Shown here piece after piece: positions 22,893 through 40,723 of a DNA stretch of 64,000 bases. The notes below the pieces were generated by a model. It saw only the letters and a program-made list of their open reading frames with translations. It was not told where the DNA came from and did no database searches. The stretch is from positions 1-64,000 of the forward strand of contig NZ_JAUYUS010000024.1 of the NCBI RefSeq assembly GCF_030694575.1, read 5' to 3'. The translations under genes and the position numbers were made by a program. Position 1 is the stretch's first letter; each line of letters opens with the position of its first letter. The stretch comes from Parvibaculum sp. Lineage in GTDB: Bacteria > Pseudomonadota > Alphaproteobacteria > Parvibaculales > Parvibaculaceae.

Positions 22893-23552
22893 GTGCATGC
22901 CATCATCCAAATCGGCCTGTATTCCGGCTTGCGTCAGAAGAACCTGCGCCAGCTCCTGATCTGTAACCGTAGCGAGGTTCCGCTATCGGAACGACGGCTC
23001 ACGGAACTCAAGCGAGGTCAGCTGCGATGGAACGGCCGCATGTCAGGCTGGGAGCTGTTCATTCCATCGGCCGCTTTCAAGAACGCAAATTCTTCCTACT
23101 TCGGCAACAAGCCGTTTCAACTGGTGCTGCCGGATCTCGGCGGATTGTATGAAGCGATAGACGCCTATGTCCGTCGTGGCAGGCCGCGGCTTCTTCATGG
23201 TGCGCCGGATCCTGCCACATTCTTCGTCAAGACCGTGAAGGCCAGCTCGGCAATTGCTGCCTATGACCAGACGACCTTCTATGAGGCCTGGCGGCTCACG
23301 ATACAGCGGCACGGCATCTACAATCCCTATACCCGTCGAGGGGCGATCGAAGGGTTGCTGCCGCATGGGCCCCATAATGTCCGCGACGTGCTCGCGACCC
23401 ATATCCTGAAAAAGACCGGCTCCTATGAGCAGGCGAGCTACGCCATTCAGGACACGCCCGATATGGTCGCAAAGCACTACGGCCGGTTCCTGCCGCAGGA
23501 CAAGGCGGCGCTCGCTGCACAAGTTCTCAACAAGGTCTGGGAGGCGTCATAG
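22893..23552 (+). pseudogene. Tyrosine recombinase, catalytic half only
   Basis: The 219 residues resemble the C-terminal catalytic domain of tyrosine site-specific recombinases. The first catalytic Arg lies in YSGLRQKNLRQLL, the H-x-x-R pair in HGPHNVRDVLATHIL, and the final Tyr in MVAKHYGRFLP. The N-terminal core-binding domain is missing: an in-frame stop stands at 22851 just upstream, and the GTG start is only a convenient codon inside the catalytic domain. I therefore take it as a truncated integrase marking an older integration event in this island. A domain-sized protein acting with a partner cannot be excluded. Confidence 0.7.
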
Positions 23553-23671
23553 GCGAGCAGGCAGAGGCGGGATGCAGAAGTCCCGGTCCCTTCCGATATC
23601 AACTTGATCGGCAGTGCTGAAACCGCGAAGCTCCATATGCTGTGGGTTCTGCCTCCAATGGGAGATTGGCC

Positions 23672-24106
23672 ATGACAGACCGGAACACGAAATCTGAAAA
23701 GCGGTCCTTTACCGGTGATATCGACGCGCAGGCGTCGGTCAAGGTGAAGAGGAATGACCGGTCTGTTGCGTTGAGGCTGACAAAGACCCTGATGAAGAAA
23801 ATCGGGTTGCGCGGAAATCGGTTGTTCGCCGCCGCAGTCGAACTCGAGCCGGGGCATTCGATCCTTCTGATGATGGACGAGCAGACTGCGTCAGGGCATC
23901 TAAATGTACTGCGCACCGGAGAGGGCCGGCTTGAGCTTGTTCTCCAAAGCGAAGGTGAGGTCGAGGTCGACGATCTGACGGAAGCCTTTCTCACTATCAA
24001 ACGTGCCCAGCTGGAGAAGGGTGACTTGCGTCTTTCGGGGCCGATGTCGGCCGATGATTGGGCGAGGCATGCGCAGCTTGCCTACAACACCGACGCAAAG
24101 ACATAG
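23672..24106 (+). CDS. Hypothetical protein of the island
   Basis: A 144-residue protein I do not recognise. It starts at ATG 23672, about 120 bp after the recombinase remnant. The chain is mixed charged, with a basic N-terminal third (VKVKRNDRSVALRLTKTLMKK), then short beta-like stretches (LFAAAVELEPG, SILLMMDEQ) and an acidic run EGEVEVDD. There are no membrane segments, Cys pairs or nuclease motifs. It could be an accessory gene of the older mobile element. Confidence 0.5.
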   Translation: MTDRNTKSEKRSFTGDIDAQASVKVKRNDRSVALRLTKTLMKKIGLRGNRLFAAAVELEPGHSILLMMDEQTASGHLNVLRTGEGRLELVLQSEGEVEVDDLTEAFLTIKRAQLEKGDLRLSGPMSADDWARHAQLAYNTDAKT

Positions 24107-24872
24107 CAAGCGCGGTCGATGCGTCGGGATAGCGGGGCTGCTTTCTGTCAGTTCGGCTGTGTAGGCCTGCGTGGCGAGAAACAGACGCTGGCTTGACTGC
24201 CCAGGCTGTTTGGACAGGGTTTCAGGGTTAAGTCGTTGATAGATAACGGTTTGCCCCTCAAACTGGTAAAAGCCGCATTTTCTGGGGCAAACACAACAGA
24301 TTCAATGGGTTCGCAGTTTTCCGGCGTCCCGCCGCGGACGGCACCGGCAGTGATCGCTCGTGGTGAAGAGAAGCGCGGGTGGGTTGGTCTTTGTCAGGCC
24401 AAGACCCTGGCCACTTGGAACCTGCGCCCTCACCGCCTCCGTCTCGCGCCTGCTCTCAAAGGGAGCGTGTCACTGGGCACCCGGTGATCGGCACAACGAC
24501 CGCGATTACATCGGACTTGCGTGCCTTTGCGCCTGATCTCGGCTAAGCGAGCCCAACCTCACGCTATTACAGACTCGAACGATCTGGCGATTTGTGATCG
24601 CAGATCATTTTCTGGGCGCCGGCCCGCCAGCTCCGATCATATTTACCAGAGCCGACGGGCTGTATTCAGCGCCGCCGTAAATCGAAAAACAACGCTGGAA
24701 AAAGGAAAACAAGGCTTTAAAATAGAAAAATAGGTGGATTCAAGTAATCGATTTTTCGGAAAAAGACATATTTTCGAATTTCTAGATGTTATCTCATTTG
24801 ATACTATAGACACCCTAGCTTGTTTCGACGATGACTTGACAACAGCCCCGATTCTGCTTCACAAAAACAAAA
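24107..24872. other. Non-coding stretch upstream of the Tn7-like operon
   Basis: About 770 bp with no supported gene. It contains a 9-bp inverted repeat GTTTGCCCC/GGGGCAAAC at 24249-24292 and becomes strongly AT-rich from about 24680 to 24830. It holds a pair of 20-bp tandem repeats (annotated separately). A perfect -35 box TTGACA lies at 24836-24841; a poorly matched -10 (TCACAA) follows at 17 bp, which would start plus-strand transcription just at the hairpin array. One end of the Tn7-like element is expected here, but no terminal TGT with a matching 5-bp duplication could be paired with the other side. Confidence 0.5.
24684..24723 (+). repeat. Two tandem 20-bp repeats, possible TnsB-binding sites
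   Basis: GAAAAACAACGCTGGAAAAA at 24684 and GGAAAACAAGGCTTTAAAAT at 24704 agree at 15 of 20 positions and abut each other. Tandem binding sites of about 20-22 bp for TnsB are the hallmark of Tn7-like ends, and the expected place is upstream of tnsA. A related core, CAAACGTTGT (reverse complement ACAACGTTTG), occurs at 30696-30705 beyond tniQ in opposite orientation. The AT-richness makes chance similarity possible. Confidence 0.4.
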
Positions 24873-24900
24873 CCGCCCGGCAGCTGTAACTGCCAGGCGG
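24873..24900 (-). terminator. Minus-strand intrinsic terminator (hairpin H1)
   Basis: Read on the minus strand, a fully paired 11-bp stem (CCGCCTGGCAG with CTGCCGGGCGG, one T-G pair) around a 6-base loop runs directly into TTTTGTTTTTG. No protein gene on this strand ends nearby, which suggests that a short non-coding transcript is what it ends. The T-tract occupies about 24862-24872. Confidence 0.65.
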
Positions 24901-25075
24901 CTTGACCCCTTCAAGGGTCAAACACGTGCGCTTCTACTACAAGCGACGTGACTGGGTGTGATTCTACCCAGTCCTGGATGCGCACGCAATTGGATTGCGC
25001 GCGCCCCGGAGGAGCCGGGGAACGCCTTGGGCGTCGGCTCCGCCGTGAGCGTTCGTTTTGAAAAGGAAACGAACG
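24873..25075 (-). ncRNA. Array of nine consecutive hairpins: candidate structured or antisense RNA
   Basis: The interval is almost entirely hairpins: H1 24873-24900 (11-pair stem), H2 24902-24921 (TTGACCC/GGGTCAA), H3 24923-24950, H4 24951-24972 (ACTGGGT/ACCCAGT), H5 24980-25004 (11-pair stem), H6 25004-25020 (CCCCGG/CCGGGG), H7 25022-25034 (ACGCC/GGCGT), H8 25035-25045 (CGGC/GCCG) and H9 25050-25075 (CGTTCGTTT/AAACGAACG). Only H1 and H5 contain a mismatch. On the plus strand these are C-A and A-C; on the minus strand both become U-G or G-U pairs, and H1 is then followed by TTTTGTTTTTG, as in an intrinsic terminator. A minus-strand transcript is therefore favoured. It would be antisense to the tnsA leader, and the putative tnsA ribosome-binding site (AAAAGG) lies in the H9 loop. 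The alternative is a plus-strand 5' leader. No promoter was identified with confidence. Confidence 0.6.
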
Positions 25076-25975
25076 ATGAAGCACAGGACTGTGGGAGATT
25101 TGCTGCCTCCCGAAATGCAGCGCTCGACCGGATATCAAGCGAGGTTTCAGTCGGACGAAGAGGCATCGGAAGGAGCCTCCTGTCTCGATCCTCGATGTGA
25201 GCCCGCCCTTGGCGGGTGCCGCGAGATAGCACATGAAAAAGCCCAAGCGCGAAACATTGGGTCTTATGAACCTTGGTCCATTTGGCCGGACGGAGGACAT
25301 CTGACTGACGAACCGACCCCAGAGCTTATTGCACAGGTGAAGAAAATCGCTCCCGGTCGAGATGTCGTCAAAAAGCAAAGATGGGGGCGGGTTCGCATCG
25401 TTCCGAACATGAAGCCGGGAACGGAATTTGTGGCGGAATCGTCTCTGGAACGAAACTTCTATCTTCACATGCTGCTCGACAGAGATGTCGAAGAACTCGG
25501 AGGCCAACCGGAGACTTTGGAGTTCTGGGTGGATGACCGCAAGGTTCGCTACACGCCCGACTTCTGGGTCAGTCGTAGGGGCGTGCTTTTCTACATCGAA
25601 GTCAAGCCCGCCCACGCGCTCGCGAAGCGGGATATTTCGGTAAAGCTCGAGGCGGCTGCGAAACTTCTGAAAGCGCGCGGAATACGCTTCGAAATCATCA
25701 CCGACAGGCGGATTCTCGAAGACGTTCCCCTCAGGAACGCGGACCTGGTCTATCGATACCGTCGGTGTCCCCTCGAGCATTACATCATTGATCGGATCGC
25801 CACTTGTCTCGGCGCCGGACGACATGTCTTCAAGGAAACTGAAAACGCACTCGGAGGGCCAAGCTTTCGACCATACATCATGCGATCCATTCTGGCCGGA
25901 CACATTGGATATGCACCACGCATCCCGATCTCCGAACATTCTCTCATCTGGTGGCATAGGGAGAACAGACCATGA
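25076..25975 (+). CDS. tnsA: TnsA-like transposon endonuclease
   Basis: About 299 residues. The catalytic core is that of TnsA, a restriction-enzyme-like nuclease which cuts the 5' ends of the element: Glu in AESSLERNFY (near residues 121-125), Asp in RYTPDFWV (162) and E-V-K in FYIEVKPA (175-177). The first 110 residues do not resemble anything I know and include Cys-containing turns. ATG 25076 is chosen because AAAAGG lies 9 bases upstream; TTG 25058 is also in frame. That ribosome-binding site lies in the loop of hairpin H9, whose stem ends at the start codon, which is unusual and suggests control of translation. Further short inverted repeats continue into the gene (25093-25111, 25202-25216). 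The stop overlaps tnsB by 4 bp. Confidence 0.85.
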   Translation: MKHRTVGDLLPPEMQRSTGYQARFQSDEEASEGASCLDPRCEPALGGCREIAHEKAQARNIGSYEPWSIWPDGGHLTDEPTPELIAQVKKIAPGRDVVKKQRWGRVRIVPNMKPGTEFVAESSLERNFYLHMLLDRDVEELGGQPETLEFWVDDRKVRYTPDFWVSRRGVLFYIEVKPAHALAKRDISVKLEAAAKLLKARGIRFEIITDRRILEDVPLRNADLVYRYRRCPLEHYIIDRIATCLGAGRHVFKETENALGGPSFRPYIMRSILAGHIGYAPRIPISEHSLIWWHRENRP

Positions 25976-27927
25976 CTGGAAAGCTCCTCGCTCCGAGTGA
26001 GAAGGTTGAGCTCCGCGGAAAAAGCTGGGTGGTCGTCGATGTAAACGAAGACGGAGACACGATTCTCCAATCGAGTGAGAATGGACGATACCTTGCAGTC
26101 TCTGAACTGGAGCTCAAGATTGCCTACAAGAACGGTGACTTGAAGCCGACGCCCGGCGGCCGGGGTTCGAACAAGAAAACTACGGACCTCCTCGATCTTC
26201 CGCAAAAATATCAGGAAGAGCTTCAGCGCCGGCGTGACTATCTACGCTTGTTGCAGGCTCGTACGAAGAACCCTGGTCGAGATGAACTCGAGCGCAACAT
26301 CAAGATCGTTGGAAGTGTGTTGGGAGACCCCAAGTCGCCATCCGTTTCAACTATCTACAGGTGGAAAAAGGATGAGGCGACGGCGAAGTCGATGGGCGAT
26401 CATCCGATTCCGGGATACCGCCGAAGAGGAAACAGAAACGTCAGAATCACCAAGAGCGTTCAGGATATCATCCGGACAAAGATCAACGAAGATTACATGA
26501 ACGGCAGGCGCCTGTCGTTAAAAAGCACCTGGAAACACATCGTCCAGATCGTTGACAGCGAAAACAGTAAGTTGCCCAAGGAAGAGCAGCACACTCTCCC
26601 CGGGATAGGCGCAGTTCGGCGTGTTCTTCACAGAACATTCTCCCCATATGAGATCTGTCGAAAAAGAGAAGGCCCCATTGCTGCAGACCGGAAGTTTCGG
26701 ATTTCGGGAAAGTCGCTCGAGCCAGACTATCCAATGCAGCTCGTGCAGATAGATCACACTGTGGCGGATCAGATTGGCTTAGACGAAGATCTGGTTGCCA
26801 TACTAGGACGTCTCAATGTATCGGCAGCGAGTGACGTTTACTCCGGTATGATCGTCGGGCTGCAGGTCGGATTCGAGCCACCAAGCACAGCATCCCTTTT
26901 CAGCTTGATCAGAAACATGATCCTTCCGAAAGCCTATGTGCAGGAGCGATGGCCGGAAATTCAAACCATTTGGGAGTGCGATGGGCCAGCCGACATACTC
27001 ACTATCGATCGGGGTAGAGAACTACTCAGCAAGGCGCACGTTGCCTTGTGTGGAGATTTTGAAATGGAGGTCGATATTTGCGGTGCAAGACGCCCGTACC
27101 AGAAGGGGGTGATCGAGAATTTCTTTGGACTTCTCTCCCACAATTTCTCCAGGAGAATTCCAGGGGCGACTTTTTCCAACCCTCGTGAGCGGGGAGAGTA
27201 CGACTCAGTTAAGCAGGCGTGCCTTGCCTATACTGACATTGTCAGACTACTTCACCAGTGGGTCATCGAAGTACACGCAAATCAGCCACGGAATGAAGGT
27301 GAGGGGCGCACGAGGCGGGAGATATGGAACGAGGGAATGGCTAAGCGTCCTCATGTCCCGATCCGGCCAATTACAGACTTCGGAGTGTTCATGGCAGGAC
27401 GTGCCGAGCCTATGCTCAACGGCAAAGGCGTACGAGTCTCCAATGAATTCTATAGGTCGCCTGATCTCGAGCTCTTGCGAAGACGGACAGGCGACAAGAA
27501 GGTCCGGGTCCGCTTCGATCCGGCAGACATGAGTGAGGTTCATGTCTTTGATGCGCAGTATGACCAGTGGTTGACAGCCTACAATGTCGATCCATTGCAC
27601 CACGGCCAGTCGCTTTACCAACTCCGTTTGGAGCGCAAGGCGCGCCTTGGGCCCGAGTCTGCTGCGGAGCGCGCCCTAAGATCTGCAAAACACGAGGCCA
27701 GATTTCAAGAGGATCTGGACGCAGCAATAAAGCGCTCCAAGCGGCAGGGCGCCAAGCGTCCCAAGATCAATGCGCGTGCAAACGGTGTCGGCATTCAGGC
27801 CCATTCAAACATCGGCCAATTTGCAACGCACAAAAAATCGTCTCTCCCGATCGTTCAAAAGCGTGCTCAAGATTATGTCGGTGATGATGTCGATTTTGGA
27901 GAATTCCGCAATGACGACACCAAATGA
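25972..27927 (+). CDS. tnsB: TnsB-like DDE transposase
   Basis: A 651-residue transposase of the Mu/Tn7/TniA group. An N-terminal region with likely HTH segments (about residues 60-240) should bind the repeats at the element ends. The RNase H-like catalytic domain has Asp261 (VQIDHTVAD), Asp346 (LTIDRGREL) and Glu382 (QKGVIENFF), the D-D-35-E spacing. A Mu-type C-terminal beta barrel and a basic tail (KRSKRQGAKRPK) follow; the tail probably contacts TnsC. It catalyses 3' end cleavage and strand transfer. Its start overlaps tnsA (ATGA) and its end overlaps tnsC by 17 bp. Confidence 0.92.
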   Translation: MTGKLLAPSEKVELRGKSWVVVDVNEDGDTILQSSENGRYLAVSELELKIAYKNGDLKPTPGGRGSNKKTTDLLDLPQKYQEELQRRRDYLRLLQARTKNPGRDELERNIKIVGSVLGDPKSPSVSTIYRWKKDEATAKSMGDHPIPGYRRRGNRNVRITKSVQDIIRTKINEDYMNGRRLSLKSTWKHIVQIVDSENSKLPKEEQHTLPGIGAVRRVLHRTFSPYEICRKREGPIAADRKFRISGKSLEPDYPMQLVQIDHTVADQIGLDEDLVAILGRLNVSAASDVYSGMIVGLQVGFEPPSTASLFSLIRNMILPKAYVQERWPEIQTIWECDGPADILTIDRGRELLSKAHVALCGDFEMEVDICGARRPYQKGVIENFFGLLSHNFSRRIPGATFSNPRERGEYDSVKQACLAYTDIVRLLHQWVIEVHANQPRNEGEGRTRREIWNEGMAKRPHVPIRPITDFGVFMAGRAEPMLNGKGVRVSNEFYRSPDLELLRRRTGDKKVRVRFDPADMSEVHVFDAQYDQWLTAYNVDPLHHGQSLYQLRLERKARLGPESAAERALRSAKHEARFQEDLDAAIKRSKRQGAKRPKINARANGVGIQAHSNIGQFATHKKSSLPIVQKRAQDYVGDDVDFGEFRNDDTK

Positions 27928-28888
27928 AATCCGACAAGACAGATTCACTCGTATGCGCGACGAGGCAATTGAGGGCGCGGTTCGGCACAAGACCTTTACC
28001 AGGTGTCTTGATCGGTTGGCCCGATTCCACCAATCGTCACTCTCCGAGTCAAAGTGTCGCTGTGCGTTCGTTACCGGTGAGACTGGAGCTGGAAAGAGCA
28101 CTCTCATTGAATACTACGCTTCGCAACATCCGAGAGTGTCGGGGCGGAACGTTGATTGTGCGCCGGTTGTATGCGTCCGAGCTCCAGGGCGGAGCACGGT
28201 CAAGGGTCTCGGCAGCGCAATTCTCATCAAGTTGGGAAGTCCGTCGCCCGCTTCATGGTCGGATTTCGAGATCACAAATCATGTCATCAAGCTGATCCGT
28301 GCAATGGATGTCCAGCTTCTGATCATCGATGAGGTCCAGGACCTACTCGAATGGAAACGGAATTCTTCTCTGTTCCCAACGCTGGTAGCTAACTTCGTTC
28401 AGTCGATAATCGATACTACGGCCACGGGTGTGGTGCTGGTTGGACTGCCAAACATAGAGACGATTGCTGACCAGGAAAGGCAGCTCGCTGGTAGGACTGG
28501 CGCCTATATCAGAATGACGGGACTGCGCCCGACGAGTCCCACTGAGAGAGCGGATTTTAAGCTGCTGATGGAAGCATTAGGGATGCGCTCTCATCTTCCG
28601 TTTTTTGCCCCCTTGGATTCGCCATTGATTGCGCTCCGGATTCAGATTGCCTCAGCAGGATATATCGGCGAGGCCAGACGACTGGTTCGATTTGCAGTCA
28701 ATTGCGCAGAAGACGAAGGAAGTGCTCTGGTACGGCTGGAAGATTTCAGCGCCGCATTGAGGGACATGACGCCGGGGGATTCCGTCCGTGTCGATCCGTT
28801 CAAGATGTCAGATGTTGATTTGATGGCATGGATCGAGATTGATCCCAAGAAGGCGATAAAGGATGCGGGGCCAAAATGGATAGAATAG
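27911..28888 (+). CDS. tnsC: TnsC/TniB-like AAA+ ATPase
   Basis: A 325-residue ATPase. The Walker A is GETGAGKST at residues 56-64 and the Walker B is LLIIDEVQD at about 136-144. A sensor-like Asn and Arg follow (GLPNIETI, LAGRTGAYIRM). This is the adaptor that, when bound to ATP, joins the target selector TniQ to the transposase and gives target immunity. ATG 27911 has GGAG about 9 bases upstream. The longer open frame starting at 27770 lies inside tnsB and is ignored. The stop overlaps tniQ by 13 bp. Confidence 0.9.
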   Translation: MTTPNEIRQDRFTRMRDEAIEGAVRHKTFTRCLDRLARFHQSSLSESKCRCAFVTGETGAGKSTLIEYYASQHPRVSGRNVDCAPVVCVRAPGRSTVKGLGSAILIKLGSPSPASWSDFEITNHVIKLIRAMDVQLLIIDEVQDLLEWKRNSSLFPTLVANFVQSIIDTTATGVVLVGLPNIETIADQERQLAGRTGAYIRMTGLRPTSPTERADFKLLMEALGMRSHLPFFAPLDSPLIALRIQIASAGYIGEARRLVRFAVNCAEDEGSALVRLEDFSAALRDMTPGDSVRVDPFKMSDVDLMAWIEIDPKKAIKDAGPKWIE

Positions 28889-30516
28889 CTTCCATCGAGG
28901 GGCTTTATTTTCCGCTACGCCCGCCGCCTGAACCTGATGAAAGTTATTTGGGATATGTGCTGCGGCTTGTTGCAGAGAACGGGGTCAAGCTTCGGCGTGG
29001 CTACTCGGCGAGAATATTCGGTGCTGACTTGCCACGGCTCCCGATAGATCAGAAGTGCATTGCCGAAGCAGTGCGACTTAGCGGCACTCACGGTGCCTGG
29101 CTGAAGCAGGCGGCCTATCACGCCGGAAGACACAGCCGACCAGGAAAAGAGCTTGTGTCATTTCGAGGCCAATTTGTGAGGCGCAATTGGCTTGCGTTGG
29201 GAAATCCGAGAGTATGCCTCCAATGTTTGAGGGAGGGTGGCGAGCATCATCGATTCCTCTGGGATTTTCGCCTTTTCAGGCGGTGCCTCATTCATGGAGC
29301 CGTCCTCACAAGCAAATGCAGGAACTGTGGCGACGAGCTTACATGGTCAAGGTGGCTTGATCTGCAGACAGAGGATTTTCGATGTATTTGTGGATATCGA
29401 CTTCTGGATCTGGATGGTGAGGTAAAGAGCAACCCTCTGTCGAGTGGGCGACATTGTAGGGCTGGAAGACTTCTCGCCAATCGTATTGCACCTGAGGTGT
29501 ACCCTGCTTGGCATAGGGACCTACATCCGGATATCGCCCGGTTGCCGCTCGAAGCGATTGTGGAGCTCTGCCTCTATCTCGGCGCAATTGCCGATCAGGC
29601 GAGCGCCAGAAAGCGAGGCCGTTTTTCTCCAACCAGTGCGGGATACGTCGAGAACAGGGTCTCACTGGGTGTGAAAATTGTATCAGGGTGGCCGACGGCT
29701 TTTCACCGAACTCTTAGACAGCTGGTCGAGAAGAACATTCGCCGTGGACGGACGTCAGTGAAGACCGTTTTGGGATCCTGCGCGCAAGAGAACTTGCTGG
29801 AGGATTTGGGGGCCGCGGAACGACTTGTTCGAGCGGAGCTGGTGAAGTTCCAGGAATCGTCATTTTTTGTCGATGAGGTTCTGTGTCGGAAGCGCCCCGC
29901 AAGAGGAACTTATATTCGTCTCTCGGGAACTATCAGCTCTTCGCAGGCGCTTGACGTCCTGAAGCTAAGTCCATCCTCATTACGATGTCTCCTGCGAATA
30001 GCAAAGAGAGAGGGGGTGGAGCATAGCCTCCACGCGGGACAGTGGTGGTTCAATGCCGACCAGGTTCATGCTGTGGCAAAAACTTATAGTGTTCTTGTGG
30101 ACTTAAAGCAGATTGGGGAGATAATCGGCGTCGGTCCTCATATGCTCTCAGAACTAAGGCGATCTTTTCACCTGCGCCTGGTAATGCGTTCAGTAAACGG
30201 CCGAAGAGCGCTGACCTGTGAGGCAGAAGAATTCGAGAGACTGATTGAAAAGGTTGGGTACATTTCACAGAACGTTGTAGCGCGTGGAGGTTACCTTCAG
30301 GGAAAAGAAGCGGCTCGCGTGTTTTCCAGGCGGGGCTTGTCGTGTGCGGATCTTGTCGATGCAATCATGGACGACATGTTGCCGGCGGTAAGGATTGTCG
30401 GTTCAGACCCGAATACGGGTCGGCTCTACTTCGAGAAAAGGGCAGTTCATGAGGTGGCCCGGCAACTCTCGGCGCGGTCAACTGACGAACCTAGGTGGGA
30501 CGATAATGGCTATTAA
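28876..30516 (+). CDS. tniQ: TniQ/TnsD-like target selector
   Basis: A 546-residue protein. The N-terminus (PPPEPDESYLGYVLRLVAENG) is the standard TniQ opening, followed by Cys pairs (VCLQC, RCLIHG, KCRNCG, RCICG) that would hold zinc. At this length it is TnsD-like rather than a minimal TniQ of about 400 residues. The C-terminal half contains several HTH-like segments (ALDVLKLSPSSLRCLLR, LKQIGEIIGVGPHMLSELRR, KEAARVFSRRGLSCADLVD), which suggests recognition of a fixed DNA target. The identity of that site is not visible here: no glmS or tRNA gene lies within the window near the element. Confidence 0.88.
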   Translation: MDRIASIEGLYFPLRPPPEPDESYLGYVLRLVAENGVKLRRGYSARIFGADLPRLPIDQKCIAEAVRLSGTHGAWLKQAAYHAGRHSRPGKELVSFRGQFVRRNWLALGNPRVCLQCLREGGEHHRFLWDFRLFRRCLIHGAVLTSKCRNCGDELTWSRWLDLQTEDFRCICGYRLLDLDGEVKSNPLSSGRHCRAGRLLANRIAPEVYPAWHRDLHPDIARLPLEAIVELCLYLGAIADQASARKRGRFSPTSAGYVENRVSLGVKIVSGWPTAFHRTLRQLVEKNIRRGRTSVKTVLGSCAQENLLEDLGAAERLVRAELVKFQESSFFVDEVLCRKRPARGTYIRLSGTISSSQALDVLKLSPSSLRCLLRIAKREGVEHSLHAGQWWFNADQVHAVAKTYSVLVDLKQIGEIIGVGPHMLSELRRSFHLRLVMRSVNGRRALTCEAEEFERLIEKVGYISQNVVARGGYLQGKEAARVFSRRGLSCADLVDAIMDDMLPAVRIVGSDPNTGRLYFEKRAVHEVARQLSARSTDEPRWDDNGY

Positions 30517-30895
30517 ATCGAGACTCCGACTTTCATGAGTTCGATACCACCGGGCGGTTGGCTTTATCAGCTGGGGAGCAGCCCGTGGTGGAGATAGTAT
30601 GTATTGTGAGTGCGCGCTTCCACTTAGACACACAGACCTATACTGGTCGGCCAAGCTATTTGCCGCTGATGACGTATTCTCGCTTTTTGCGCGCACAAAC
30701 GTTGTTATTCTCACGTTATAGCCATTGCGGGCATCATCGTACGCAGTAGCTTGAAAAGCTAACCCATTGATTTGATGACAGACGGAGTCCTACTTTATGC
30801 TATCCGTCGCACCGGGCCGCGAACCCTCCTCTTCCCTTGTGCCCGCCAAGACGCGGGCTAAGATCGATCAACAAGAAAATCGGGAGGATGGCGTC
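30517..30895. other. Non-coding stretch after tniQ
   Basis: About 380 bp with no gene. The second end of the Tn7-like element is expected here. The interval holds a possible inverted TnsB-site core at 30696-30705 and a run TTTGATGACA ending at 30780, which has the terminal ACA expected of such ends, but no 5-bp duplication matches the left side. The last 100 bp are GC-rich, host-like, and contain the ribosome-binding site of the monooxygenase gene. Confidence 0.4.
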
Positions 30896-32527
30896 ATGGC
30901 TCGTGAAGCGAGTGCGTCCGCGCAGGCGGATATGAAGGAATTCGATGCGGTGGTGGTCGGCGCCGGTTTCGCCGGAATGTACATGCTGCACCGGCTGCGG
31001 GGCCTCGGCCTCACCGCCCGCGTTTTCGAGGCGGGCGACGGCGTCGGCGGCACCTGGTACTGGAACCGCTATCCCGGCGCGCGCTGCGACGTCGAAAGCC
31101 TCGAATACCAATACGGCTTTTCCGACGAGATTCAGCGCGGCTGGACCTGGACGGAGCGATACGCCGCCCAGCCCGAAATCCTGCGCTACCAGAATTACGT
31201 CGCCGACCGGCTCGACCTGCGCCGCGACATCCAGTTCGAGACGCGCGTGACTGCCGCCACCTATGACGAGCGCGCGGGCCTGTGGACCGTCGAAACCGAT
31301 CGGGGCGACCGCGTGACCGCGCGCTTCTGCGTCATGGCGACGGGCTGCCTCTCCGCCGCCCGCGTGCCGGACTTTCCGGGCCTCGGCGACTACGAGGGCG
31401 AGTGGTATCACACGGGCGACTGGCCGCATGCAGGCGTGGACTTCACCGGCAAGCGCGTCGGCGTCGTCGGCACCGGCTCGTCCGGCATCCAGAGCATTCC
31501 GCTGATCGCCGAACAGGCCTCTCATCTCACCGTCTTCCAGCGCACCGCGAATTTCACGCTGCCGGCCGGCAACCGGCCGCTGGCGCGCGAAGAGATCGAG
31601 AAGTCGAAGGAGACCTTGCTGGACGACCGCGCGCATGCCCGCACGACGCCCGGCGGCATCATCTGCTTCGAATACAACGAAACGCTGGCCGCCGACATGA
31701 CGCCGGAGGAACGCTACCGCGAGCTCGATAAGCGGTGGCACCAGGGCGGCTTCGCTTTTCTGGGCGCCTTTGGCGATCTGATGGCGTCACCGGAAGCCAA
31801 CGACGTCGCGGCAGATTATGCGCGCGCCGAAATGCGCAAGGTCATCAGGAACCCCGCCGTCGTCGATATTCTCCTGCCCGACGATCATCCGGTCGGCGTG
31901 AAGCGACTCTGCCTCGACACGCATTATCTTGAGACGTTCAACGAACCGCATGTCGACATCGTGGACGTCAGGGCGGCACCCATCGAACGGATCACGCCGA
32001 AGGGGATCGTCAGCGGCGGAAAGGAATATGAAGTCGACTGCATCGTCTTCGCGACCGGCTTCGACGCCATGACGGGCGCGCTGAACAGCATCGACATTAC
32101 CGGCCGTAACGGCACGAAGCTTCGCGAAAAATGGGCGGCCGGACCGCGCACCTATCTCGGCCTCGGCTCGGCGGGCTTCCCGAACCTCTTCTTCATCACC
32201 GGCCCCGGCAGCCCCTCCGTTCTGAGCAACATGATCGTTTCCATCGAGCAGCATGTCGACTGGATCAGCGACTGCATCCGCAAGCTGACGGCGGGAAATA
32301 TCCGCTCGATCGAGGCGCGGCCCGATGCCGAGGACCAGTGGGTCGAACATGTCAACGAACTGGCGAGCGCCACGCTCTACCCGCAGGCGAACTCCTGGTA
32401 CATGGGCGCCAATATTCCCGGCAAGCCCCGCGTCTTCATGCCCTACACCGGCGGCGTAGGCGTCTATGGAGAGAAACTCGCGGAGGTGGCCGCTGCCGAC
32501 TACGAGGGCTTCACGCTCGGGTCGTAG
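30896..32527 (+). CDS. Flavin-dependent Baeyer-Villiger monooxygenase, second copy
   Basis: A 543-residue class B monooxygenase: VVGAGFAGM FAD motif at residues 21-29, GGTWYWNRYPGARCD at 51-65, and the NADPH motif VVGTGSSG near 190. The fingerprint reads YEGEWYHTGDWP at 166-177, with Tyr in place of the first Phe but His172 and Trp176 kept. It is closer to classical cyclohexanone/cyclopentanone monooxygenases than the copy at 16655. ATG 30896 has GGGAGGA 7 bases upstream; open frame before it is ignored. It directly follows the transposon and may belong with the catabolic cluster on the other side, now separated by the island. Confidence 0.88.
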   Translation: MAREASASAQADMKEFDAVVVGAGFAGMYMLHRLRGLGLTARVFEAGDGVGGTWYWNRYPGARCDVESLEYQYGFSDEIQRGWTWTERYAAQPEILRYQNYVADRLDLRRDIQFETRVTAATYDERAGLWTVETDRGDRVTARFCVMATGCLSAARVPDFPGLGDYEGEWYHTGDWPHAGVDFTGKRVGVVGTGSSGIQSIPLIAEQASHLTVFQRTANFTLPAGNRPLAREEIEKSKETLLDDRAHARTTPGGIICFEYNETLAADMTPEERYRELDKRWHQGGFAFLGAFGDLMASPEANDVAADYARAEMRKVIRNPAVVDILLPDDHPVGVKRLCLDTHYLETFNEPHVDIVDVRAAPIERITPKGIVSGGKEYEVDCIVFATGFDAMTGALNSIDITGRNGTKLREKWAAGPRTYLGLGSAGFPNLFFITGPGSPSVLSNMIVSIEQHVDWISDCIRKLTAGNIRSIEARPDAEDQWVEHVNELASATLYPQANSWYMGANIPGKPRVFMPYTGGVGVYGEKLAEVAAADYEGFTLGS

Positions 32528-32554
32528 CGGCTGCAGGACAGAAAGGGCGGGCGA

Positions 32555-32568
32555 TTGATCGACATCAA
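32555..32568. promoter_or_regulatory. FNR/FixK box
   Basis: TTGATCGACATCAA is a perfect TTGAT-N4-ATCAA site. It lies about 115 bp before the start of the erythromycin-esterase-family gene, which allows a transcription start near 32603 at the usual 41-42 bp from the centre. A FixK-like regulator without Fe-S cysteines is encoded at 39856 and would be its natural ligand. Confidence 0.75.
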
Positions 32569-32676
32569 TGCCCGCCGGACAAGTGCGACTAGCCTTCATG
32601 TACCGCGGCCCGTTGAAAACGGCGGTCGATGCGGTACTTCCCCTGGCGTCGAAAAGCCATGTGGACGAGGGTGGAT

Positions 32677-34020
32677 ATGGCCGACTACCGCACTGCGCAT
32701 GAACACAGAAAATCGCATCAGCCGGCGCTGACCGGCATGCTGCGCGCACATGCGGAACCTTTGCCGCCGCCCCTGAAGGCAGAAGAATTCGGCGGATTCT
32801 TTGCGCGGTTTGCCGACGCTCGCGTCGTGTTGCTCGGCGAGGCCTCGCACGGCACCGCCGAGTTCTACAATGCGCGGGCCGCCATCACGCGCGAACTCAT
32901 CCAGCATCATGGCTTCAACATCGTCGCCGTCGAGGCGGATTGGCCGGATGCGGCACATATAGACCGCTATGTGCGCCACCAGGCGGCGCGGCCGGGCCGG
33001 GGCGAAGCCTTTTCCCGCTTTCCGACATGGATGTGGCGCAACAGGGAAGTCGTGGCTTTCGCCGACTGGCTGCGCGCTCACAACGAAGCTCTGCCGCCTG
33101 CCGCGCGGGTTTCCTTCAATGGCCTCGACGTCTACAGCCTCGACGAATCCATCCACGCCGTTCTCACCTATCTCGACCGCGTCGATCCCGAAGCGGCGGG
33201 TCTTGCGCGGCGGCGGTATGGATGTCTGACCCCATGGCAGGAAGAGCCGGCGCAATATGGCCGCGCGGTTCTCTACCGGGGCAAGGAGACCTGTGAGGGG
33301 GAAGTCGTCAGGCAGCTCAACGACATGCTCGCGCGCCGGCTCGACTACATACGCGAAGACGGTGAAGACTGGTTCGATGCGGCGCAGAACGCACGCGTCG
33401 TGAGAGCGGCGGAACACTACTACCGGATCATGTATCGCGGCTCGACGGAATCCTGGAACCTGCGAGACCGGCATATGTTCGACACGTTGACGGCACTTCT
33501 CGCCGCGCGAGGTCCTGATGCCCGCGCCGTGGTATGGGCGCACAATTCGCATATCGGCAACGCGGCGGCGACCTCCATGGGCTGGCAGGGCGAGTTCAAT
33601 ATCGGAGAACTCTGCCGCACGACATTCGGAGACGGCGCGGTCGCGATCGGATTCGGAACGGATCGCGGAACCGTGGCTGCCGCCAGCGATTGGGGCGGCA
33701 CGATGGAATTCAAATCGGTCCTCCCTGCGCGAGCCGACAGCTACGAGTATGCATTCCGGAAGACAGGCATCTCCCGTTCGCTGACGGATTGGCGTGGCCC
33801 CGCCCGCAGCGAGCTTGCCGAGGCCCTGCGCGAGTCGATGCTCGAGCGTGCGATCGGCGTCATCTACCGGCCGGAAACGGAATTCCTCAGCCATTATTTC
33901 GAAGCCGTGCTTGCCGATCAGTTCGATGCCTATGTCTGGTTCGAGGAAACGACGGCGGTGACGCCGCTTGCCGCCGGGCGTCCGCATGGCGCGCCCGACA
34001 CTTATCCGTTTGGACTCTGA
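32677..34020 (+). CDS. Erythromycin-esterase family protein
   Basis: A protein of 447 residues of the EreA-like fold: LLGEASHGTAEFYNAR holds the conserved His, FNIVAVEADWPDA and SRFPTWMWRNREVVAF follow, and AVVWAHNSHIGNA carries the second conserved His. Most chromosomal members are not resistance enzymes and their substrate is unknown. ATG 32677 follows GAGGG; upstream in-frame ATGs (32629, 32659) are possible. It opens a tight run with an alpha/beta hydrolase (3 bp gap) and a phosphoribosyltransferase (1 bp gap), behind a perfect FixK box, so it is likely induced when oxygen is low. Confidence 0.85.
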   Translation: MADYRTAHEHRKSHQPALTGMLRAHAEPLPPPLKAEEFGGFFARFADARVVLLGEASHGTAEFYNARAAITRELIQHHGFNIVAVEADWPDAAHIDRYVRHQAARPGRGEAFSRFPTWMWRNREVVAFADWLRAHNEALPPAARVSFNGLDVYSLDESIHAVLTYLDRVDPEAAGLARRRYGCLTPWQEEPAQYGRAVLYRGKETCEGEVVRQLNDMLARRLDYIREDGEDWFDAAQNARVVRAAEHYYRIMYRGSTESWNLRDRHMFDTLTALLAARGPDARAVVWAHNSHIGNAAATSMGWQGEFNIGELCRTTFGDGAVAIGFGTDRGTVAAASDWGGTMEFKSVLPARADSYEYAFRKTGISRSLTDWRGPARSELAEALRESMLERAIGVIYRPETEFLSHYFEAVLADQFDAYVWFEETTAVTPLAAGRPHGAPDTYPFGL

Positions 34021-34023
34021 AAA

Positions 34024-34677
34024 ATGGTCGTCATTCACGAACCCTTTGCCGTCGAGATAGGCCCGCAGAAACTCCAGGCATATCTCGCCCTGCCGGACGA
34101 CCCGAAAGGTCTCGTGATCTTCGCGCATGGCAGCGGCAGCGGCCGCATGAGCCCGCGCAACAACTATGTCGCCGCCGCCTTGCGAAAGGCGGGGTTCGCG
34201 ACATTGCTTCTCGATCTGCTTACGCCGCTTGAAGAGAAAGACAGAAGCAATGTCTTCGATATCGCGCTGCTGGCGAGTCGGCTTTCGCTCGCAACATCGT
34301 GGGCGGCGGAGCGCGCCGACACCGGCAGCTTGAATGTCGGCTATTTCGGTGCCAGCACAGGTGGGGGCGCGGCACTGATGGCGGCAGCGGAGCCGGATGC
34401 CCGGGTCGCGGCAGTTGTGTCGCGTGGCGGACGACCGGATCTTGCGGGTCCGGCACTCGCCCGCGTGCACGCACCGGTGCTGCTCATCGTCGGCGGCCTG
34501 GACGGTCCGGTCATCGGCATGAACCGCGACGCTTTCGCGCAACTGCGTGGGGAGAAAGAACTCGTCATCATTCCCGGCGCGGGGCATCTGTTCGAAGAAC
34601 CGGGCACGCTCGACCAGGTCGTGCATCACGCGGTCCGGTGGTTCCTGGCCCACCTGCCGAAACCCGGGGAATGCTGA
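34024..34677 (+). CDS. Alpha/beta hydrolase, dienelactone-hydrolase-like
   Basis: A 217-residue hydrolase. The N-terminal strand region and FAHGSGSG oxyanion-type loop are typical; the nucleophile position reads GYFGASTGGGAAL, with Ser in G-A-S-T-G. The Asp and His are in VGGLDGPV and GAGHLFEEPG. It is encoded 3 bp after the erythromycin-esterase-family gene and just before the phosphoribosyltransferase. In several bacteria this trio is found together as a stress set. Substrate unknown. Confidence 0.85.
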   Translation: MVVIHEPFAVEIGPQKLQAYLALPDDPKGLVIFAHGSGSGRMSPRNNYVAAALRKAGFATLLLDLLTPLEEKDRSNVFDIALLASRLSLATSWAAERADTGSLNVGYFGASTGGGAALMAAAEPDARVAAVVSRGGRPDLAGPALARVHAPVLLIVGGLDGPVIGMNRDAFAQLRGEKELVIIPGAGHLFEEPGTLDQVVHHAVRWFLAHLPKPGEC

Positions 34678-34678
34678 C

Positions 34679-35365
34679 ATGGCGAAGACGCAAACGGGCT
34701 CCACAGACCGCATGTTTCTGGACCGCCACGATGCGGGGCGGCAGCTTGCCGCCGCCTTGCGTGGATATACAAAGGACAATCCCGTTATCCTTGCGCTGCC
34801 GCGCGGCGGCGTGCCGGTCGCCTTCGAGGTCGCGAAGGCGTTGGGCGCGGAACTCGATCTCCTGTTCGTGCGCAAGATCGGTGCGCCGGGCCATGACGAA
34901 CTCGGCATTGGCGCGGTGGTGGACGGGCTGCATCCGCAGCTCGTGCTGAACGAGAATCTGGCGCGCCGCACCGGCGCCGGAAGGGATTATGTAGAAGCAA
35001 GAATGGCGCGCGAACTGGACGAAATAGAGCGGAGACGCGAAGCCTACAAGAAGGGTGAACCGCCGGTCGATCTCGGCGGACGCGTCGTCATCCTGGTCGA
35101 TGACGGTATCGCGACAGGCGGCACCGTGAAGGCGGCGCTTCGCGGCATAAGCCGCAACAGTCCCGCGCGGCTCGTACTCGCCGTACCGGTCGCGCCCGAG
35201 GAAGCGATAGAGGAAATGAACGCGCTGGCCGACGAGGTGATCTGTCTTGCGACGCCTGAGCCCTTCCAGGCGGTCGGCCTTCACTACAGGGATTTTACCC
35301 AGACATCGGACGGCGAGGTGGTGCTCCTGCTGGAACTGGCGAAGGCGTGGCGCTCGCCTTCATGA
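34679..35365 (+). CDS. Phosphoribosyltransferase family protein
   Basis: A 228-residue protein. The PRPP-binding motif VVILVDDGIATGGT is near residues 139-152, and PRGGVPVAFEVAKAL, RKIGAPGHDELGIGAV are the marks of the group sometimes annotated as predicted phosphoribosyltransferase. The substrate base is unknown. It follows the hydrolase by one base and probably shares the FixK-controlled transcript. It converges on the PAS_5-like gene, 3 bp away. Confidence 0.87.
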   Translation: MAKTQTGSTDRMFLDRHDAGRQLAAALRGYTKDNPVILALPRGGVPVAFEVAKALGAELDLLFVRKIGAPGHDELGIGAVVDGLHPQLVLNENLARRTGAGRDYVEARMARELDEIERRREAYKKGEPPVDLGGRVVILVDDGIATGGTVKAALRGISRNSPARLVLAVPVAPEEAIEEMNALADEVICLATPEPFQAVGLHYRDFTQTSDGEVVLLLELAKAWRSPS

Positions 35366-35368
35366 TGG

Positions 35369-35851
35369 CTAAACCCGCGCGATGGCGCAGAGCAGCATGC
35401 TGATTTCGCCTTCGCCCCAAAGCGGCAGGACGAGACGCGCATAGTCCTTTGCCTTGTAGTAGGTCGGCGCGCGGCCCTCGACGGTTGCGCTCGCTTGCGC
35501 GCGGAAAAAATCGAGCGGCGGTTTCACGTCGACCTCATCGACGAAGCGGCCGGCAAGTCCCCCATTGTGGGAAGCGGAGATATCCTTGCCCACGATCTCG
35601 AAGCGAAAGCGCTCCGGTTTGGTGAAAGCCGCGACCAGCATCAGCCGGTCGGCAAGCGCCGGAAGCGCCGAGAGATTCACATCGTCCCAGTAAGGCATGT
35701 CGCTCGCCTTGCCGCGTATCAGGCCACGCCAATAGGCATGAACCGTTGCGAGATCGGCTTCGAGCGTTGGCGGCAGGGCGTAGGGTGTCGGGAAATCTGT
35801 CATTTGAATTCGCGGCTTTCCGTCTTTCGGCGTCGCAAGGAAGGCCGCCAA
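35369..35851 (-). CDS. PAS_5-like (DUF1457-type) sensory protein
   Basis: Up to 160 residues; from the internal ATG at 35803 it is 144. The segments VHAYWRGLIRGKASDMPYWDDVN and FRFEIVGKDISASHNGGLAGRFVDE follow the single-domain PAS_5 pattern common in alphaproteobacteria. Start choice: TTG 35851 has GGAG 5 bases upstream, ATG 35803 has a weaker site. No output domain is present. A FixK-like box stands between this gene and the divergent membrane-protein gene. Confidence 0.65.
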   Translation of the reverse strand: MAAFLATPKDGKPRIQMTDFPTPYALPPTLEADLATVHAYWRGLIRGKASDMPYWDDVNLSALPALADRLMLVAAFTKPERFRFEIVGKDISASHNGGLAGRFVDEVDVKPPLDFFRAQASATVEGRAPTYYKAKDYARLVLPLWGEGEISMLLCAIARV

Positions 35852-35935
35852 AGTTACTCCGCCTCGCTTTTAGCGACAACTTCTTTGGCCGCGGCGAAGC
35901 CGGCCTCCGATGAACTGCCTGCAAAAAATTCGAAT

Positions 35936-35949
35936 ATGACCTGAATCAA
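35936..35949. promoter_or_regulatory. Probable FixK-type box
   Basis: Read on the minus strand, TTGATTCAGGTCAT matches the FixK consensus TTGAY-N4-RTCAA at 9 of 10 positions. It lies between two divergent genes, about 85 bp from each start, and could serve either. Confidence 0.5.
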
Positions 35950-36024
35950 GGAAATCTCCTGCAGCGTTCGGCAAACTAAATAAATTGGATGGCCATGGTG
36001 CCTCCGAAGCACAGGAGGATCGAC

Positions 36025-36309
36025 ATGAACGCGCGCTTGACCGCTTTTCTTCCCGCCTCTGCCTTCGGCAGCGTCACGGGTTTCGCCTCCCGAGAAAATT
36101 CTCATGCAACGGCTGAGCGCAAGTCGGGAGAGGCTGCGCCGCCGGTTCTGGTTCCCTTGTGGGTTGCCATGGGTATCGCCGGCGCGGCGGCGTTGCTGCC
36201 GTTCTACGGCGCCGCCTTGTGGGCGCTGCCGGCACTTGCTTTCCTGGTGGCCTGTCCACTGCTTGTTGCCGGCGTGGTTTTGATGGAGGGCAGCGCGCCC
36301 GCCGACTAG
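36025..36309 (+). CDS. Small membrane protein of the oxygen-response block
   Basis: A 94-residue protein with a soluble basic N-terminal half and two hydrophobic segments near residues 43-62 and 64-86 (LWVAMGIAGAAALLPFYG, LWALPALAFLVACPLLVAGV). ATG 36025 follows AGGAGG. I do not recognise the family. The FixK-type box upstream and the neighbours suggest a role in low-oxygen adaptation. Confidence 0.65.
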   Translation: MNARLTAFLPASAFGSVTGFASRENSHATAERKSGEAAPPVLVPLWVAMGIAGAAALLPFYGAALWALPALAFLVACPLLVAGVVLMEGSAPAD

Positions 36310-36336
36310 TCGCGACGCGGTTGCGGAGAGACGAAG

Positions 36337-36741
36337 ATGCTCACCATCAACCCCGAGAAAGTCTGCCACGTCGTCGTCAAAGCGCGGGTGCTCGACGCGA
36401 AGGAGAGTGTCAGCGATCCGTCGTCGGGCTCCAATCCCACGGACGATGGCGGCACCGACATTCTGGAGGATTTCGCAGACGATCCGACGCGCCAGGAACT
36501 CATCGAGTTTATTCGAGCCCTGGACGAGGACGAACAGGTCGAACTCGTGGCGCTCTCATGGCTCGGACGCGGCACTTATGAATTCGACGAATGGGAGGAG
36601 GCGCTTGAGGAAGCACACGCCGCGCATAATGAGCGCACGGCTGAATATCTGACCGGACTGCCGTTGCTTGGCGACTACCTGGAGGAAGGACTCGCCGCAT
36701 TCGGCGAGAGTTGCGAGGACTTCGAGAAAAACAGGTTGTGA
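36337..36741 (+). CDS. DUF3775 family protein
   Basis: A 134-residue acidic protein. The opening LTINPEKVCHVVVKAR, the central ILEDFADDPTRQELIEFIRALDEDEQ and LVALSWLGRGTYEFDEWEEAL fit DUF3775, a family widespread in alphaproteobacteria and of unknown function. It is probably cotranscribed with the membrane protein before it and the CBS gene after it. Confidence 0.8.
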   Translation: MLTINPEKVCHVVVKARVLDAKESVSDPSSGSNPTDDGGTDILEDFADDPTRQELIEFIRALDEDEQVELVALSWLGRGTYEFDEWEEALEEAHAAHNERTAEYLTGLPLLGDYLEEGLAAFGESCEDFEKNRL

Positions 36742-36810
36742 TCGCGCTGCGGAGACAGTTGCTTTTCGGTGCGCGGAATTCACCGCTCACCAAAATCAGG
36801 GAGACCGGAC

Positions 36811-37230
36811 ATGAAAGTCAAAGACATCATGCACAGCAAGGTGACCTGGGTGGGCCCCGACGAGACCCTTTCCCGGATTGCCACGAAAATGCGCGACGAC
36901 GATATCGGTGCGATACCGGTGGGCGAGAACGATCGTCTGGTCGGCATGGTCACCGACCGGGACATCACCTGCCGTGCGGTCGCCGGGAGCGGCGACATGA
37001 AAAAACTGAAGGCACGCGACGTGATGACGAAGAATGTCGTCTGGTGTCACGATACCGACGATATCGCGGAAGCGGCTCATCTGATGGAAAGCAAGAAGAT
37101 CCGCCGCCTTCCCGTCATCGACCGAAACAAGCGGATGGTCGGCATGTTGAGCCTCGGCGACTTCGCGGGCCGCGCGCCGAAGAGTCTTTCCGGCGAAATC
37201 GTTGCGGCGGTCGCTGCCCATCACGGTTGA
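36811..37230 (+). CDS. CBS-domain pair protein
   Basis: A 139-residue protein made of two CBS domains in tandem: KVKDIMHSKVTWVGPDETLS...GAIPVGENDRLVGMVTDRDI and KARDVMTKNVVWC...IRRLPVIDRNKRMVGMLSLGD. Such stand-alone pairs bind adenine nucleotides and act as energy sensors. ATG 36811 follows AGGGAG. In an oxygen-response block it may sense the fall in ATP or in charge. Confidence 0.88.
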   Translation: MKVKDIMHSKVTWVGPDETLSRIATKMRDDDIGAIPVGENDRLVGMVTDRDITCRAVAGSGDMKKLKARDVMTKNVVWCHDTDDIAEAAHLMESKKIRRLPVIDRNKRMVGMLSLGDFAGRAPKSLSGEIVAAVAAHHG

Positions 37231-37474
37231 CGTGCCGGCAGAGCCGGGATCGAAACAGTCCAATACAGGAGAATGACCCTCGAAGGGTGTTCCGAAGGTC
37301 GAGGTGCCGAAACTGGCCAAAGCGAAGAAAGCCAGCGGGAAAATCGAAGTCAAAAGTGCCTGAGTCCCGCGAGATAGCGCGGGCAAACGGGAAGCCCGGG
37401 TGCCCGCGCATCATTCAACAAAATTTCTCGTGATTTTGGGTGGCCGCCCCGCGAGCCGCAGGGTATCTTGAAAG
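37231..37474. other. Intergenic stretch before fixL
   Basis: About 240 bp. It contains a hairpin at 37366-37383 (CCCGCG/CGCGGG) and a possible tiny frame at about 37275-37364 ending KASGKIEVKSA, which lacks a good in-frame start. No FixK-type box is visible. Confidence 0.4.
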
Positions 37475-38635
37475 TTGGCTTTCACTATCCGGGTGGCGGG
37501 GATGGGTACCGGCGCGAACACGCCGTTCAAGGACGCGGAAAACGCGGCGCTCTTTCGTATGCTTGTTGCGACAGCGGTGGACGGCATCATCGTCATCGAT
37601 GCCCTGGGAACCGTGCGGCTCTACAATAGTGCATGCGAAAGTCTCTTCGGCTATGGGCCGGAGGAGGTGTTGGGCCGCAATATCAGGATGCTGATGCCCG
37701 CGCCTTATCGCGAAGAGCATGACGGTTACATCGATGCCTATCACAGGACCGGTGAGCGCAAGATCATCGGCATCGGCCGCGAGGTGTTCGGTCAGAACAA
37801 GGATGGCTCGACCTTTCCGATGTATCTGTCCGTCGGCGAGGGCATGTTCGAGAACGAGCGGGTCTTCGTGGGCATCATTCACGATACCACGGAACGGCAT
37901 GTTGCAGCCGCGCGCCTGCGGGAAGTGCAGGGGGAGCTTGTCCATGTTTCGCGGATGAACGAAATGGGCCAGATGACCTCGGCCCTCGCGCATGAACTGA
38001 ACCAGCCGCTCACAGCGATCATGAATTATATCCGCGCGGCGCAGCGGACCATTGCCGCGCTCGACGATCCGGCGGTCGTCCGCGCGAGGGACCTGATGGA
38101 GAAGGCTGCCGACCAGACGGGCCGGGCGGGGCAGATCATCAAACGGTTGCGGGATTTCGTCGAAAAGCGGGAGGCGATCCGCGCCGAGGAGGATCTGAAC
38201 AGGACGATCGAGGAAGCGATAGCGCTTGCACTTGTCGGCGCCTCGGATACGAACGTCAAGGTCGTCGTCGATTTCGACCGGGGCATCCCGCCTGTCGTCA
38301 TGGACCGGATACAGATACAGCAGGTGATCCTCAATCTGGTGCGGAACGCGGTCGAGGCCTTGCAGGACGTAGCCCGGCGAGAGCTGACAATCGCAACGAG
38401 GTCCGACGAACCGGACTACGTCCACGCGTCTTTTGCCGATACCGGGCCGGGACTGCCGGACGAAGTATCGAGCCGGTTGTTCCAACCCTTCGTCACGACC
38501 AAGGAGAAGGGCATGGGCATAGGTCTCTCGATTTGCCAATCCATTGTCGAAGCTCACGGAGGCAGACTCTGGGCGGTGCCGAATGAGGGTGGCGGCACCG
38601 TCTTTCATTTTCGCTTGCCCATAGCGGGTCTGTAG
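37475..38635 (+). CDS. fixL: FixL-like heme oxygen-sensor histidine kinase
   Basis: A 386-residue kinase. The PAS domain (about 25-140) matches FixL: the heme-ligand His is His82 in PYREEHDGYI, and the oxygen-contacting Arg is Arg102 in IIGIGREV, exactly 20 residues later as in Bradyrhizobium FixL (His200, Arg220). The phospho-acceptor is His173 in SALAHELNQPLT. N, G1 and G2 boxes follow (ILNLVRNAVEAL, FADTGPGLPDEV, GMGIGLSICQS). There are no membrane segments, so it is a soluble sensor. With no oxygen it should phosphorylate FixJ, encoded 5 bp downstream. The start may be TTG 37475, GTG 37493 or ATG 37502. Confidence 0.92.
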   Translation: MAFTIRVAGMGTGANTPFKDAENAALFRMLVATAVDGIIVIDALGTVRLYNSACESLFGYGPEEVLGRNIRMLMPAPYREEHDGYIDAYHRTGERKIIGIGREVFGQNKDGSTFPMYLSVGEGMFENERVFVGIIHDTTERHVAAARLREVQGELVHVSRMNEMGQMTSALAHELNQPLTAIMNYIRAAQRTIAALDDPAVVRARDLMEKAADQTGRAGQIIKRLRDFVEKREAIRAEEDLNRTIEEAIALALVGASDTNVKVVVDFDRGIPPVVMDRIQIQQVILNLVRNAVEALQDVARRELTIATRSDEPDYVHASFADTGPGLPDEVSSRLFQPFVTTKEKGMGIGLSICQSIVEAHGGRLWAVPNEGGGTVFHFRLPIAGL

Positions 38636-38640
38636 AAACG

Positions 38641-39267
38641 ATGAGGACCGAAGAGACAGTTTTCATCGTCGACGATGATACGGCGGTTCGCGAGTCGCTC
38701 CGCGCCCTGCTGGAATCGGCGGCGCTCAATGTGGATGACTTTTCTTCCGCGGCCGCCTTTCTGGGCTCTTATGTACCGCACCGGCCGGGCTGCCTTGTCG
38801 TCGATATCCGGATGCCGGACATGGATGGGCTGGAACTTCAGGAGGAGCTCGTTCGCCGCAGCATTGAATTGCCGGTCATCGTCGTCACCGGCCATGCGGA
38901 TGTTCCCCTCGCCGTGCGGGCGATGAAAGCCGGCGCTGTGGACTTCATCGAGAAGCCCTTTGACGACAATTTGCTGCTCGACGGGATCGGCCGCGCTCTT
39001 GAGGCGGGCCGGCAGCGGCGGAGCCATGCCGATTTCTCGCAAGCCGCCAGGACCCGCATCGCCGGCCTCACCCAGCGCGAAAGAGAAGTGCTGGAGCACC
39101 TGGTTTCCGGCCAGTCCAACAAGGTGATCGCCTACGAACTCGACATATCCCCCAGGACCGTCGAGGTGCATCGCGCGAACCTGATGGAGAAGATGCGGGC
39201 TCGTACACTCTCCGATCTCGTGCGCATGGCGCTGGAAGCGGGCGTCGGCCACGGAGACAAAACCTAG
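38641..39267 (+). CDS. fixJ: FixJ-like response regulator
   Basis: A 208-residue regulator. The receiver has the acidic pair DDD at 11-13, the phosphorylated Asp55 (CLVVDIRMPD), the Thr in VVTGHAD and the Lys in FIEKPFDD. A LuxR-type HTH follows (LTQREREVLEHLVSGQSNKVIAYEL, ISPRTVEVHRANLMEKM). It should activate fixK-type genes when phosphorylated by FixL. It lies 5 bp after fixL. Confidence 0.92.
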   Translation: MRTEETVFIVDDDTAVRESLRALLESAALNVDDFSSAAAFLGSYVPHRPGCLVVDIRMPDMDGLELQEELVRRSIELPVIVVTGHADVPLAVRAMKAGAVDFIEKPFDDNLLLDGIGRALEAGRQRRSHADFSQAARTRIAGLTQREREVLEHLVSGQSNKVIAYELDISPRTVEVHRANLMEKMRARTLSDLVRMALEAGVGHGDKT

Positions 39268-39271
39268 TTAA

Positions 39272-39279
39272 ACTACGTA
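39272..39279. promoter_or_regulatory. Possible FixJ site before the lone receiver gene
   Basis: The sequence ACTACGTA, within an AT-rich stretch ending in TATATAG, occurs a few bases after fixJ and about 65 bp before the receiver gene. A related ACTACGGGTATCTACGG lies before the fixK-like gene. FixJ sites in rhizobia contain ACGTA-type cores, but I give this as a weak suggestion. Confidence 0.3.
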
Positions 39280-39343
39280 TATAGCGCCACGTGCCGCCGC
39301 TCTATTGTCCACAATGGGCAGGGTTGGTCGTTTGGAGGCGGCA

Positions 39344-39742: not shown

Positions 39743-39747
39743 CTGCG

Positions 39748-39765: not shown

Positions 39766-39855
39766 TTTTTCCTCCTCTCCCTGCGTGACATGGTTGTTCC
39801 GCTGCAGAAGCTAAAAAGCCGCAGCGCTTGAACGCGATGTAAGAGGGGTCTCCGA

Positions 39856-40711: not shown

Positions 40712-40723
40712 GGCCGCGTACTC

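Follow-up and report, generated by a model that had tools for sequence, protein, structure and literature searches.

RNA-OUT of IS10/Tn10 is reported to mediate antisense-dependent repression of the IS10 transposase (PMC5006887), and the transcript of IS200 tnpA, by one account, also yields a small RNA that acts on other genes (PMC12594629). Together with the plasmid ctRNAs, which are short stem-loop RNAs with an intrinsic terminator, these are the described systems closest to the locus considered here. When we searched full texts for antisense RNA with Tn7-like tnsA, titles and abstracts revealed no described example of RNA control of a Tn7-like transposon, and indicated that the matches had CRISPR or genome editing as their subjects. 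The stretch of DNA that we analyzed (64,000 nucleotides, hereafter the window) contains four consecutive plus-strand genes of a Tn7-like transposon: tnsA (25076..25975), encoding a TnsA-like endonuclease (Pfam PF08722, E 4.5e-11; E121, D162, E175 and K177 conserved), tnsB (25972..27927), encoding a DDE transposase (Mu-transpos_C, E 3.4e-9; D261, D346 and E382 conserved), tnsC (27770..28888), encoding a TniB-like ATPase (PF05621, E 1.2e-26), and tnsD (28876..30516), encoding a TniQ-like protein (PF06527, E 1.5e-11). A search for the repeats, inverted or direct, that would mark the transposon ends gave nothing convincing, and the exact ends were not located. A profile search of a species-representative collection returned TnsB relatives that were mostly 24–29% identical and at most 32%, over a short segment, and close relatives of TnsA, TnsB or TnsC were absent from the genome, viral and plasmid collections; judged by these sequence comparisons, the transposon is isolated from its known relatives. 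At its N terminus the TnsA protein also carries about 90 additional residues (window 25076-25360), which most of the distant homologues in our TnsA alignment lack.

Directly upstream of tnsA lies the densest hairpin stretch of the window as found by short-range folding (24873-25075), at only moderate G+C. A preliminary description had placed nine local hairpins in these 203 bp, and all nine are present, with the last of them (H9) ending at 25075 and abutting the tnsA ATG at 25076. Compared with dinucleotide shuffles, none of which was equally stable on either strand, the array folded at -104 kcal/mol on the plus strand (z -6.6) and at -115 kcal/mol on the minus strand (z -9.2), the more stable of the two. 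A longer hairpin around H7 uses bases of both H6 and H8, competing with them, and is favored over separate H6, H7 and H8 by 2.6 (plus) to 4.3 (minus) kcal/mol. Because this competing hairpin is more stable, the minimum-energy fold does not contain all nine hairpins at once, and nine is the number of possible local hairpins rather than the number in that fold. The mismatches in H1 and H5 are, as had been described, C-A and A-C on the plus strand, and therefore become U-G and G-U pairs on the minus strand. The T-rich tract following H1 on the minus strand could likewise be read directly as the U-tract TTTTGTTTTTG and was seen in a terminator scan.

When relatives were searched at the DNA level, part of the array was found again (L156) in a different species of the genus (G015), with 77% identity over window 24860-24987, and a finer alignment stretched this similarity to about 24998. 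The similarity is confined to the stretch running from a -35-like box through a -10-like box, H3, H2 and H1 to the U-tract. By this comparison the array is composite, in that H1–H3 form a conserved minus-strand unit and H4–H9 are without counterpart in L156. On the minus strand, the -35-like box TTGCGT (24984..24989; TCGCGT in L156) lies in H5, 17 bp from the -10-like box TAGAAT (24961..24966; TACAAT in L156), which sits centrally in H4. The spacing is conserved, the boxes of the window and L156 (TNGCGTGCGCAT) are 11/12 conserved, and both are putative promoter elements. The -35-like box is a weak match to the consensus and was missed by our promoter scan of 24500-25500, which reported no minus-strand promoter. 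Downstream of the boxes is the block homologous to L156, which we propose as a small RNA (sRNA) of about 90 nt (24862..24953), its start placed by the -10-like box. Within it, H3 (24924..24949) has one bulged base and nine invariant pairs, with a loop that differs in L156, and H2 (24902..24921) has five invariant central pairs, with a shorter loop in L156. H1 (24873..24900) is the terminator stem-loop, detected on the minus strand by the terminator scan with 15 pairs and folding at -23.9 kcal/mol there versus -18.5 kcal/mol on the plus strand, and it is followed by the U-tract (24862..24872), which reads TTTGTTTTTTG in L156. Both copies thus have a terminator hairpin and then a U-tract on the RNA strand, as a bacterial sRNA gene would.

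On the window's minus strand, 25/25 pairs of H1–H3 hold in both copies, whereas only 24 (window) and 23 (L156) hold on the opposite strand. Three substitutions fall in paired columns, all of them in H1, and they preserve pairing through G-U on the minus strand only. With gaps counted, changes affected 3 of 50 paired columns versus 15 of 45 unpaired columns (Fisher p 0.0012). The L156 copy folds with z -5.1 on the RNA strand and z -2.1 on the other, and the sequence upstream of the RNA is unstructured there (z +1.6). The structure is preserved in an independent homologue, as expected of an sRNA gene. Strict covariation is absent between the two copies because no pair is altered on both sides, the changes being three one-sided G-U changes and no two-sided ones. 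Overall, we take the comparison of the two copies to support a minus-strand RNA well.

These observations suggest that the tnsA-distal third of the array is probably a stand-alone minus-strand sRNA gene of about 90 nt, divergent from tnsA. We read it as a complete gene because the unit of putative promoter, RNA and terminator recurs in a related bacterium that lacks this transposon, and the likely RNA as about 90 nt (H3-H2-H1) because conservation starts at the promoter-like boxes inside H4/H5. A promoter in the H4/H5 region would start the RNA near 24953 and direct transcription away from tnsA, the RNA would fold into H3, H2 and H1 as three back-to-back stem-loops, and it would end at the H1 intrinsic terminator. 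H4 and H5 would be partly promoter sequence, and H6–H9 would be a distinct element, a structured leader of tnsA in which the ribosome-binding site is partly masked. The idea of a structured minus-strand RNA that ends at the H1 terminator is well supported, given a homologue that keeps all H1–H3 pairs through G-U-tolerated changes; the length of about 200 nt and the nine hairpins originally attributed to that RNA are not supported.

The unit is narrowly distributed. The RNA model scored 119 and 110 bits for the window and L156, the copies from which it was built, and at most 33.5 bits for everything else; 18 of the other matches, at about 21-33 bits, were inspected and proved to be ordinary terminators after unrelated sequence. 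Samples of 385 genomes from the class and 398 from the phylum, searched with stricter filters, yielded no third copy, and plasmid, phage and viral searches with L156 gave no matches, so that the genomes sampled contain two copies only. DNA matches in phages were due to chance. No Rfam family exceeded its gathering score in the window, the best sub-threshold match being to ctRNA_pGA1 (22.4 bits versus a gathering score of 45). This weak match, far below the gathering score, is one likeness to plasmid ctRNAs, as are the short stem-loop form with its intrinsic terminator and the setting of the L156 copy, which is flanked by iteron-like repeats and has genes for ParA and HTH_13 proteins nearby. 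Unlike a ctRNA, the L156 copy is co-directional with the putative replication gene rather than antisense to it.

In its content the L156 contig resembles a plasmid or an integrative element, with genes for ParA, an HTH_13 protein and a topoisomerase-domain protein, and the proteins of this stretch have no relatives in the window. Eight iteron-like repeats (CATAAACTGCGACTGG and its reverse) surround the RNA in opposite orientations, three on one side (L156:1341-1416) and five on the other (L156:1799-1955). They stand upstream of the HTH_13 and ParA genes and probably mark a plasmid replication origin. The array itself was also considered as a set of TnsB sites or iterons, and this was rejected for lack of any iteron copy in the window and of end repeats. 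Divergent from the sRNA copy is an ORF of 450 aa (L161:6619-7968) without a Pfam or PADLOC match, which ends near an RNSVMH motif that we take to resemble a HEPN nuclease motif.

Base pairing through its loops is the most likely way in which such an sRNA would regulate. It may quite possibly pair with a target encoded elsewhere. Pairing of the loops, as antisense, with a plus-strand transcript that crosses the sRNA gene, for example a long tnsA leader, is a somewhat more doubtful prospect. Action elsewhere is slightly likelier because the homologue keeps its promoter-RNA-terminator unit in a different genetic setting. No target or function was found, and predicting targets from duplex energies at translation starts was not informative. 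The RNA may act as antisense to the tnsA leader, which needs a tnsA transcription start upstream of the sRNA gene, where the promoter scan placed one promoter-like site (24696-24723). The candidate could work in the manner of RNA-OUT or of the IS200 leader RNA. Like RNA-OUT, it is a small structured RNA encoded opposite to a transposase gene, at that gene's beginning; unlike RNA-OUT, its start probably falls outside tnsA coding sequence, it is conserved at a locus without this transposon, and it overlaps the tnsA transcript only putatively. The IS200 tnpA leader, with art200, is similar in being a structured transposase leader, but the IS200 sRNA comes from the sense leader, whereas the sRNA here is encoded antisense to tnsA and has a terminator of its own.

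Control of Tn7-like transposition had been proposed as the role of the array, and the comparisons do not support this link. The G015 genome, host of L156, has no match to the window's TnsA or TnsC at E<=0.001. In a survey of 61 records of sequence upstream of tnsA, four were the window locus, and the 57 others, a few of them duplicated and all distant relatives, contained no comparable hairpin array (0/57); the best of them reached z -6.0, but its hairpins did not follow one another directly. The sRNA unit thus shows no RNA-OUT-type linkage to the transposon in related elements, and the evidence does not support labeling the array as an RNA that belongs to Tn7-like transposons. We think it unlikely that an antisense sRNA and a hairpin-masked ribosome-binding site together control the transposon and set transposition frequency, with a plasmid using the same module. 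Were the antisense reading true, the sRNA would pair with a long structured tnsA leader and the unit would be a portable control cassette of mobile elements. If expressed, the sRNA would be an undescribed, narrowly distributed one common to two mobile-element settings of one genus, and would offer a compact and concrete case in which to test whether RNA controls a Tn7-like transposon.

Some of the array may act on the plus strand instead, as a tnsA leader in which stacked hairpins block access to the ribosome-binding site or protect the gene from read-through transcription. H6–H9 (H6 25004-25020; H7 25022-25034; H8 25035-25045; H9 25050-25075) would make up such a leader (25004..25075), with z -3.8 on the plus strand for 25005-25075 and no equivalent in L156. 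H9, touching the ATG, contains the likely ribosome-binding site AAAAGGAAA, H4–H9 together reach z -4.2 on the plus strand, and the promoter scan placed a promoter-like site upstream, at 24696-24723. As an account of the whole array this reading is rather unlikely, given that H1 is more stable on the minus strand, that the L156 changes keep pairing only there, and that the 57 other tnsA records have nothing comparable. For H6–H9 it is compatible with the sRNA gene, and the two can coexist.

More improbable is a minus-strand RNA of about 200 nt that starts inside tnsA, contains all nine hairpins and represses tnsA in cis, like RNA-OUT of IS10. Such an RNA would account for a continuous array whose halves each exceed chance folding on the minus strand, would end at the terminator at the array's edge, and would span the tnsA ribosome-binding site. 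H4 (24950-24973) and H5 (24980-25004), the palindromes over the putative sRNA promoter, are indeed structured (z -5.6 minus, -3.2 plus), but the matching stretch of L156 is not, conservation begins only at the boxes inside these hairpins, the promoter scan reported no minus-strand promoter, and the homologue is not linked to such a transposon. A role of the palindromes at the DNA level, for instance as recombination sites or as operators bound by dimeric repressors, and not as RNA, would fit the centering of the H4 palindrome on the -10-like box and the H3 stem sequence that is invariant between the copies, but is very improbable, as the G-U-type changes tolerated in H1 break DNA dyad symmetry, the H1 U-tract is on one side only, and half-sites vary among the hairpins.

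Upstream of the transposon, window 22911-24383 is 94% identical to a sequence in another genome (G016:C22) that there lies near a different Tn7-like tnsA. It encodes a small ORF and what we take to be a tyrosine recombinase's C-terminal portion (HNVRDVLATH..HYGRF; no Pfam match), and it is possibly an insertion hotspot. Downstream, G+C rises from about 53% to 63-69% at about 30750-30830, and from 30828 onward the sequence resembles the orthologous loci of the genus; this region is probably the edge of an imported segment. In G013, the gene for a Baeyer-Villiger-like monooxygenase (window 30797-32527) directly precedes sequence matching window 40730-41014, and therefore about 8 kb (window 32523-40730) was either inserted in the window or lost in G013.
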